Below are positions 1,798 through 27,854 of a stretch of 27,854 bases of DNA, in pieces. The position numbers and the translations under genes were made by a program. Source of the stretch: a virus; the IMG/VR virus record IMGVR_UViG_3300001472_000116, positions 1 to 27,854 of that record. One strand, 5' to 3'. Below the pieces are notes generated by a model that saw only the letters and a program-made list of their open reading frames with translations, ran no database searches and was not told the origin of the DNA. Positions within the stretch are counted from its first letter, which is position 1. Every line of letters starts with the position of its first letter.

Positions 1798-2181
1798 ATG
1801 TATAAATGGTTAAAAAAGAATTACCACTTATTTGTAATTGTATGTGCTTGTATTCTAGTCTTTAGTTTTTTAAATGATAAGCAAGAATATATAGAAGAAT
1901 ATAATTCTAAAATAGAAGCATTAGAGCAAAAAGTTGATTCGTTACATAGTGAAAATGATGAATTGACTTTTAAAATTGACACATTAAATAATCAAATAAC
2001 TAAATTAGATCAACAACTTGATCTTAAAGATAACAGAATAAACAACTTAAGATATGAAATTAATACCAAGGTTGATGCTGTTGATAGCTTTAATGATAAT
2101 GAGCTTGAAAGGTTTTTCACAGAACGTTACAGACAGTACTTCGATTCAATTAAAAAAACCAATAGTAAAATTAGTAATTAA
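1798..2181 (+). CDS. Membrane-anchored coiled-coil protein, candidate i-spanin (Rz-like)
   Basis: This 127-residue protein has a short basic N-terminus (MYKWLKKN), one hydrophobic helix at about residues 9-25 ('LFVIVCACILVFSFL') and then a long heptad coiled coil at about residues 33-85 (IEALEQKVDSL... IDTLNNQITKL). That is the layout of an inner-membrane spanin: N-terminus in the cytoplasm, coiled coil across the periplasm. Spanins of phages of Gram-negative hosts fuse inner and outer membranes in the last step of lysis. The last 128 bases overlap, in another frame, a gene that encodes a signal peptide and coiled coil, which is the classic Rz/Rz1 arrangement. It could instead be another single-pass membrane protein. 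No endolysin or holin is visible next to it. Confidence 0.5.
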   Translation: MYKWLKKNYHLFVIVCACILVFSFLNDKQEYIEEYNSKIEALEQKVDSLHSENDELTFKIDTLNNQITKLDQQLDLKDNRINNLRYEINTKVDAVDSFNDNELERFFTERYRQYFDSIKKTNSKISN

Positions 2182-2467
2182 AGATTTAATTACGGGTGAT
2201 GGAGCTAAAGAAGAATTAGTTCTTACTACTGATAAAGTTAAAATATTAGAACAAAAAGTTGTTTTAAAAGATAGTATTATTTCTAATTTTGAATTAAAAA
2301 TTAATAATTTTAACTCTATTTTATCTACTAAATCTAATCAACTATCAATATCCCAAGAATTATCTAAAAAATTAGAAATAGATTTACAAAAACAAAAAGT
2401 AAAAAATAAATTAACTGCTGGAGCAGGAATAGTAGCTGTAATAGGTGCTATACTTTTAGTAAAATAA
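2054..2467 (+). CDS. Secreted coiled-coil protein embedded in the preceding gene, candidate spanin partner
   Basis: This 137-residue protein starts inside the previous gene in the +1 frame. Residues 1-23 form a signal peptide (MKLIPR, a hydrophobic core, then 'MSLKGFSQ'); the FSQ end is typical of Bacteroidota secreted proteins. A coiled coil follows at about residues 58-115, and residues 119-136 form a C-terminal hydrophobic helix ('LTAGAGIVAVIGAILLVK'). There is no lipobox cysteine, so it is not a classical Rz1 lipoprotein. Signal peptide, coiled coil and C-terminal membrane helix together recall single-molecule (u-)spanins, which normally carry a lipoprotein N-terminus. The reading frame continues 286 bases beyond the upstream stop, so it is a real gene and not a shadow. 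It ends one base before the terminase start. Confidence 0.55.
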   Translation: MKLIPRLMLLIALMIMSLKGFSQNVTDSTSIQLKKPIVKLVIKDLITGDGAKEELVLTTDKVKILEQKVVLKDSIISNFELKINNFNSILSTKSNQLSISQELSKKLEIDLQKQKVKNKLTAGAGIVAVIGAILLVK

Positions 2468-2468
2468 T

Positions 2469-4040
2469 ATGTCTAATCTTAAAAAAGTAATACGCCAAGA
2501 ATATTTAAAATGTGCTAAAGACCCAGTACATTTTATGCGTAAATATTGTTATATACAACACCCACAAAGGGGGCGCATACAATTTAATTTATTTCCATTT
2601 CAAGAAAAAGTACTAAAGCTATTTAGGGATAATCCTTATTCTATAGTATTAAAATCTAGACAATTAGGTTTATCTACCCTTTCAGCTGGTTATTCTTTAT
2701 GGATGATGACATTTTATAAAGATAAAAATATTCTTTGTATAGCAACTAAACAAGAAACAGCTAAAAACATGGTAACAAAGGTAAAATTCATGTATGAAAA
2801 TTTACCTTCATGGCTTAAAATCACAGCAGCTGAAAATAATAAATTAAATCTTCGATTATCAAATGGATCACAAATTAAAGCTACTTCAGCTTCAAGTGAT
2901 GCAGGTAGATCAGAAGCAGTATCTTTACTATTAATTGATGAGGCAGCATTTATTGATAATATTGGAGAAATTTGGGCTTCAGCACAACAAACTCTAGCAA
3001 CGGGTGGTGGTTGTATTGCTTTAAGTACACCTTATGGTACTGGTAATTGGTTTCATCAAACATGGACTAGAGCAGAATCATCTGAAAATGATTTTTTACC
3101 AATTAAATTACCTTGGTTTGTTCATCCTGAAAGAGACCAAATATGGAGAGATAGACAAGATGAATTATTAGGTGACCCTAGAATGGCGGCACAAGAGTGC
3201 GATTGTGATTTTAGTACCTCAGGTGATATTGTATTTTATTCTGAATATATAGATTTTTATGAAAAAACTTATATTAAAGACCCATTAGAAAAAAGAGGTG
3301 CAGATCAAAATTTATGGGTTTGGGAATCCCCCGACTATACAAGAGATTATATTGTAGTAGCCGATGTATCCCGGGGTGATGGAAAAGATTATTCTGCATG
3401 TCACGTAATAGATGTAGCAAATAATGTACAAGTAGCCGAATATAAGGGCCAAATTGGTACAAAAGAATATGGACATTTATTAGTTGGTTTAGCTACTGAA
3501 TATAATGAGGCTATGTTAGTAATAGAAAATGCTAATATAGGGTGGGCAACTATACAAGTAGCGATAGATAGAAATTACCCTAATCTTTACTATTCACAAC
3601 GGAGTGACTCCCCAAATGCTAGTTCGTATTTTGATAAATATCAAGACCACTCTAAAATGGTAGCTGGTTTTACAATGTCATCTAGAACACGTCCTATGGT
3701 TATAGGTAAATTTCAAGAATATATAGGTGATAAGGGAGTAACAATACAATCTAAAAGATTGATAGAGGAAATGAAAGTATTTATTTGGCGTAATGGAAGA
3801 GCAGAAGCCCAAGGTGGCTATAATGATGATTTAGTTATGTCATTTGGTATTGCTATGTATATTAGAGATACGGCATTAAAATTAAGACAAAGAGGTTTAG
3901 ATGCAACCCGAAATGCATTAAATAATATAACTGTAAATAGAACAGCATATCAAGGCGGGCATTTTTCAAGTGGTAATGATAATCCCTACCATATAAACAC
4001 AGAGGGAGGAAAAGAAGACATTAGTTGGCTTCTTAAATAA
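2469..4040 (+). CDS. 17: Terminase large subunit (gp17-like packaging ATPase/nuclease)
   Basis: This is the DNA-packaging motor that docks on the portal, pumps DNA into the prohead by ATP hydrolysis and cuts the concatemer. The ATPase domain shows 'PFQEKVLKLF' (Q motif region, about residue 43), a Walker A-like 'KSRQLGLST' (62-70), Walker B 'LLLIDEAAF' (about 153-161) with catalytic Asp-Glu, and the coupling motif 'ALSTPYGTG' (about 184-192). The nuclease domain has acidic residues in 'VVADVSRGDGKDYSA' (D299), 'MLVIENANIGW' (E353) and 'GGYNDDLVMSFG' (D453/D454), matching the D-E-D triad of T4 gp17. At 523 residues it is shorter than T4 gp17 (610), mainly at the N-terminus. A TAATATG junction joins it to the upstream gene. 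No small terminase subunit is seen nearby. Confidence 0.95.
   Translation: MSNLKKVIRQEYLKCAKDPVHFMRKYCYIQHPQRGRIQFNLFPFQEKVLKLFRDNPYSIVLKSRQLGLSTLSAGYSLWMMTFYKDKNILCIATKQETAKNMVTKVKFMYENLPSWLKITAAENNKLNLRLSNGSQIKATSASSDAGRSEAVSLLLIDEAAFIDNIGEIWASAQQTLATGGGCIALSTPYGTGNWFHQTWTRAESSENDFLPIKLPWFVHPERDQIWRDRQDELLGDPRMAAQECDCDFSTSGDIVFYSEYIDFYEKTYIKDPLEKRGADQNLWVWESPDYTRDYIVVADVSRGDGKDYSACHVIDVANNVQVAEYKGQIGTKEYGHLLVGLATEYNEAMLVIENANIGWATIQVAIDRNYPNLYYSQRSDSPNASSYFDKYQDHSKMVAGFTMSSRTRPMVIGKFQEYIGDKGVTIQSKRLIEEMKVFIWRNGRAEAQGGYNDDLVMSFGIAMYIRDTALKLRQRGLDATRNALNNITVNRTAYQGGHFSSGNDNPYHINTEGGKEDISWLLK

Positions 4041-23230: not shown

Positions 23231-27854
<4,624 letters not shown>

Follow-up and report, generated by a model that had tools for sequence, protein, structure and literature searches.

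In the overlapped class of lambda Rz/Rz1 spanins, the gene of an out-of-frame partner with a secretion signal begins inside that of a type II coiled-coil protein, and the two occupy the holin/endolysin slot. The T4 spanins PseT.3/PseT.2 are encoded by separated genes, and two Cys are essential in the o-spanin lipoprotein PseT.2. The u-spanin T1 gp11 has an N-terminal export signal with a lipobox, a beta-rich periplasmic domain and a C-terminal hydrophobic segment that is its inner-membrane anchor. To our knowledge, every known outer spanin carries a lipid anchor. At least one periplasmic Cys is present in 507 of 528 known two-component spanin systems, the T4 spanins are unlinked to the T4 holin and endolysin, and about 13% of the phages surveyed are "spanin-less", their other route being posed as a question (PMC6139136). 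According to a 2025 survey filtered on lipoboxes, Bacteroidetes phages use only u-spanins (PMC12596118).

The gene pair described here, P1/P2, lies in a window of 27,854 nt (the whole stretch of viral DNA that was analysed), which represents a T4-related structural region with a gp17-like terminase, gp20 portal, S77 prohead protease and gp23 capsid. P1 (1798..2181, + strand) is an ORF of 127 aa and P2 (2054..2467, + strand) one of 137 aa; both have homologues and were modelled by AF2 as single chains. They share 128 nt (2054..2181, + strand), P2 being read in the +1 frame. The P2 frame stays open in just 1.2% of synonymous recodings of P1 (n = 20,000), and an open frame with an equally hydrophobic signal core is found in 0.025% of 20,000. 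Among 71 homologues, P1 third-position diversity drops from 0.337 ahead of the overlap to 0.189 within it. In the final 17 codons of the overlap the most variable position is the wobble base of P2 (0.251 vs 0.111 and 0.109 in the same 71 homologues), thus P2 is under selection. The overlap is more than chance, and selection acts on both frames.

The locus set comprises 289 loci with P2, with 262 complete pairs, 151 of them distinct. Nearly every complete pair overlaps by 74-137 nt, and the lengths cluster at 128, 119 and 92 nt, differing because the P2 start and the P1 end shift. Related loci keep the register, in which P1 FF(T/A) lies on P2 FSQ. The initial annotation had noted an out-of-frame overlap of 128 bases, which the coordinates bear out; the overlap is also conserved across the loci with a complete pair.

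P1 has one N-terminal hydrophobic segment followed by a long heptad-repeat helix. The predicted transmembrane segment (1828..1872, + strand; residues 11-25, LFVIVCACILVFSFL) has a flat hydrophobicity sum of -4.05 on the Hessa 2005 scale, which serves comparison only. The coiled coil (1891..2085, + strand; residues ~32-96) has an almost unbroken series of a/d heptads. The AF2 model (pLDDT 86.7) shows a helix over residues 9-96 (88 residues), a hinge, and a second helix over residues 100-125. This short, invariant C-terminal helix bears the motif ELxxFFxxRY, in the window ELERFFTERY (2101..2130, + strand; residues 102-111), of which E102, L103, F106, F107, R110 and Y111 are invariant in 61 divergent sequences. 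Judged by hydrophobicity and the AF2 model, P1 is a predicted i-spanin-like type II protein, with a single N-terminal TM and a periplasmic coiled coil. Searches of Pfam, PHROGs, NCBIfam, PDB sequences and BFVD with P1 return matches to generic coiled coil alone, and none of the 151 distinct pairs has a periplasmic Cys in P1.

P2 begins with a signal (MKLIPRLMLLIALMIMSLKGFSQ), continues as a long helix and ends in a hydrophobic tail. Signal-peptide calls were based on sequence rules, conservation and AF2. The signal peptide (2054..2119, + strand; residues 1-22) is predicted to be removed by signal peptidase I, which would cleave ahead of Gln23 (2120-2122). The signal ends in xFSQ in 147 of the 151 distinct pairs and in SSQ in another 3; the one P2 left is a frameshifted copy without an N-terminus. 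Under the Bacteroidetes Q-rule, a Gln directly behind the cleavage site identifies a signal peptidase I substrate (PMC5837995). This Gln follows the predicted cleavage site in 150 of the 151 distinct P2 sequences, and no lipid is expected on P2 because it marks signal peptidase I. These features predict P2 to be a product of signal peptidase I rather than a lipoprotein.

Window P2 has no Cys in its whole sequence, and thus neither a lipobox nor the mark of an outer-membrane lipoprotein, as the initial annotation had noticed; in the family at large the FSQ or SSQ ending is consistent with this. The window pair has no periplasmic Cys, but one is present in the P2 of 47 of the 151 distinct pairs. 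CFSQ variants were considered as lipoproteins and rejected: the 4 lipobox-like P2 matches retain FSQ, and SLNC is non-consensus. The Q-rule signal, together with an isolate from Flavobacterium (below), also agrees with the suggested Bacteroidota origin.

A flexible linker follows the P2 signal peptide and leads to a distal module (2156..2203, + strand), modelled by AF2 as a short conserved helix (residues 35-47) and a GDG turn (KPIVKLVIKDLITGDG), in which D44 and D49 are invariant and K43, L45 and G50 are conserved to at least 90%. The long coiled-coil helix (2207..2407, + strand; residues 52-118) runs into the tail, forming in the AF2 model (pLDDT 81.9) an unbroken helix over residues 52-136 (85 residues), with block-mean pLDDT of 84-97 across residues 51-120. 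In these models the layout of P2 almost mirrors that of P1. Profile and fold searches with P2 (Pfam, PHROGs, NCBIfam, PDB sequences, BFVD) gave no convincing match. P2 as a holin was rejected, one weak PHROG match (E 0.1) being all that was found. No family in Pfam, PHROG or NCBIfam describes P1/P2, and the pair has no sequence or fold match to known spanins past generic coiled coil.

The P2 tail (2420..2461, + strand; residues 123-136) lies between an upstream Lys-rich stretch and a single Lys downstream. Its best segment is 14 residues with a hydrophobicity sum of -1.28; the terminase clade averages -1.22 and the cassette clade +0.45, and on the same scale P1 sums to about -2.9 and T1 gp11 to -5.9. 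The 15 residues upstream of the tail have a net charge of +2 to +6 in 150 of 150 pairs. The flank averages +4.3 before the tail and about +1 after it, with at most one charge following, the reverse of T1 gp11, where an uncharged-to-acidic flank precedes the segment and a basic one follows. Were P2 anchored as a type I inner-membrane protein, the charge bias would leave the positive side facing out. The initial annotation had tied both partners to the inner membrane, which is disfavoured by the short, marginally hydrophobic tail and its strongly basic periplasmic flank. Because the tail is weak and this flank basic, a secreted P2 with an outer-membrane tail is preferred, although the chance that the tail engages the outer membrane and not the inner is, from sequence, somewhat less than even. 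We know of little precedent for an alpha-helical tail that inserts into the outer membrane. P2 may instead be an inner-membrane protein.

An IMG/VR scan with the P2 of Flavobacterium phage immuto yielded dozens of loci ordered endolysin-holin-P1-P2. A terminase neighbours 200 of the 262 complete pairs, lysis genes lie upstream of 56, immuto among them, neither is found in 6 and both in none. The holin is immediately ahead of P1 in 53 loci, and an endolysin lies within 2.2 kb in 51. The window's own clade lacks this linkage and belongs to the terminase-adjacent group (200 loci). Thus TerL (2469..4040, + strand; T4 gp17-like, Pfam Terminase_6N, E 4e-13) does directly follow the pair, as first described, yet this is a clade feature: TerL is a neighbour outside the P1/P2 system, and its adjacency tells where the pair sits in this clade. 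In the sister clade, P1/P2 occupies the spanin slot. One family (L252) has the pair two genes downstream of an Amidase_2 endolysin (49.9 bits, cut-off 26). On a concatenated tree (quick method) the context must have changed 4 times, on strongly supported branches in at least 3 cases, and because of these repeated moves between two places the pair is seen to travel as a unit.

The lysis genes may also be distant. On a 113.7-kb contig (L165) the pair is at 43 kb; the endolysin and holin lie ~62 kb from it, near 106 kb, and no further spanin candidate adjoins them. Among 20 long contigs, the immuto holin was found in none, and the immuto endolysin was matched solely by a domain within a 1333-aa protein (G005). 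A scan of a genome collection for the pair returned one MAG contig only.

Among isolates in INPHARED, tblastn found the pair only in immuto phages. The gp187/gp186 of vB_FspM_immuto, both annotated "hypothetical protein", are true homologues of P1/P2. The gene order is endolysin-holin-gp189-gp188-P1-P2, with the terminase far off at 119 kb; the endolysin is GH19 (31.0 bits, Pfam cut-off 25.5) and the holin Phage_holin_4_1 (28.2 bits, Pfam cut-off 22.2). The deposited gp186 start (46129) leaves out the signal peptide and shortens the overlap. Read from the upstream ATG at 46087, which is likely the true start, gp186 regains an LSSFSQ Q-rule signal and an 89-nt overlap with gp187. The gene so re-read is L082 10088-10489, equal to NC_055915 46087-46488. 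The immuto gp185 belongs to a family of conserved multi-TM proteins with a coiled-coil stretch, located in lysis clusters (L082 10551-11696, L234 9135-10190, L093 16225-17385, L241 7136-8350); the members searched have no Pfam or PHROG match, and the protein is possibly another lysis component.

The complete immuto genome, the window and the long contigs were scanned for lipoboxes by our own rule. In immuto the scan returned two lipoprotein-like genes and one implausible reverse-strand match, all of them away from the lysis cluster and lacking a C-terminal membrane anchor, so that no u-spanin was found; the small lipoprotein gp030 sits 26 kb from the pair. No lipobox ORF was detected in the window or a near-identical 52.5-kb contig, and no lipoprotein conserved across the long contigs was found. 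A bona fide spanin elsewhere, named at the outset as grounds for abandoning the spanin reading, is thus not found in the complete immuto genome. In 3 of the 56 cassettes a proline/His/Tyr-rich lipoprotein of 63-72 aa, with lipobox TAC/TSC, begins 7-8 nt after P2 (L260:5407-5625, L276:4152-4346, L279:1756-1947); the remaining cassettes have no lipoprotein there, and the L279 protein matches only itself. By sequence these three look o-spanin-like in size and composition, and they may act as an outer partner alongside or instead of P2, so that a three-part version is possible.

Compared with the lambda class, P1/P2 has the same type II coiled-coil protein, internal out-of-frame start and partner secretion signal, and in the sister clade the same slot. 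It differs in that P2 is without lipobox or lipid anchor and has a long helix and C-terminal tail, in that periplasmic Cys is usually absent, and in that no sequence homology was found. The T4 spanins share the T4-related background and, as regards the window's clade, the distance from holin and endolysin; unlike PseT.3/PseT.2, however, P1/P2 overlap, and PseT.2 has its lipid and Cys. P2 resembles T1 gp11 in its export signal, periplasmic domain and C-terminal hydrophobic segment. However it is helical, has a partner and does not combine a lipobox with a C-terminal inner-membrane TMD in one protein; its tail is far weaker, with reversed charge bias.

The slot beside holin and endolysin, the overlapped architecture, the movement as a unit and the adjoining of two unrelated endolysin types together argue that P1/P2 probably does the spanin job, and the 53 loci in which P1 comes straight after the holin lend weight to the spanin-like role first suggested. 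The best explanation, and a probable one, is that P1/P2 is a two-component, overlapping-gene spanin equivalent with a non-lipoprotein second component, which disrupts the outer membrane during lysis in a group of T4-related Bacteroidota phages.

A type II P1 and a type I P2 could instead form a two-protein inner-membrane subunit, with an unlinked lipoprotein of phage or host origin as its outer-membrane partner. A signal peptide combined with a hydrophobic segment at the C-terminus is the classic type I arrangement, and small lipoproteins exist, both after P2 in L260, L276 and L279 and at a distance in immuto (gp030). However the tail is marginal or sub-threshold in much of the family, its periplasmic-side flank is basic, and the lipoproteins are rare or unlinked, with none conserved across the long contigs, which makes this arrangement unlikely.

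Since the pair adjoins the holin in the cassette clade, it should also be considered as a holin regulator (an antiholin or lysis-inhibition sensor, like T4 RI) that makes no attack on the outer membrane; one membrane and one exported protein would fit periplasmic sensing. Yet an overlapped type II coiled coil with an exported partner is a spanin layout, the neighbouring holin is of the small Phage_holin_4_1 type, and the phages would be left without any outer-membrane step, so that such regulation appears improbable. More improbable still are envelope proteins with no lysis role (superinfection exclusion, division block, virion assembly) that neighbour lysis or packaging genes by chance. The terminase beside 200 of 262 pairs would suit this, as would a weak likeness of P1 to DivIC/FtsL-type TM coiled coils, but those scores are far below cut-off, and repeated moves into one slot behind the holin, next to two unrelated endolysin types, argue against chance.

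If P1/P2 is a spanin equivalent, the N-terminal helix of P1 would anchor it in the inner membrane, with the coiled coil reaching ~10 nm into the periplasm, and P2 would be exported, cut ahead of Gln23 and released. The P2 tail would insert into a membrane, most likely the outer one, and so do the work of the missing lipid. Once the endolysin has cleared the wall, P1 (N-end anchor) and P2 (C-end anchor) may pair antiparallel, a bundle that would put both anchors at the same end and, like a class I fusion hairpin, draw the two membranes towards each other. In P1-P2 covariation (effective depth ~57), the best parallel and antiparallel bands are equally strong. The full proposal, a lipid-free spanin with its tail in the outer membrane and a hairpin like that of class I viral fusogens, used group-wide and missed because searches require a lipobox, is tentative and rather doubtful as a whole.

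The P1/P2 family is a concrete candidate for the other route in "spanin-less" phages and is present in an isolated phage, immuto. P2-like proteins would be filtered out of the 2025 survey because it was filtered on lipoboxes, which suggests that the restriction of Bacteroidota phages to u-spanins may be a search artefact. Should the P2 tail enter the outer membrane, this would be a new way of anchoring a fusogen there. In phages of Porphyromonas gingivalis, some secreted proteins of unassigned function follow the Q-rule (PMC10367356); they are possible candidates for P2-type lysis proteins.

In a 120-kb contig (G022 68393-68792, locus L219) a frameshift breaks the P2 frame, either by sequencing error or in a decayed copy. 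A conserved coiled-coil gene at 1440-1790 of the window (MKKSQLASFIKEEI...), for which PHROGs and Pfam yield nothing convincing, is ahead of P1 across most of the terminase clade. At 23231-27328 the window encodes a 1365-aa protein that strongly matches collagen repeats (Pfam Collagen, 254.7 bits) and is probably a tail fibre.
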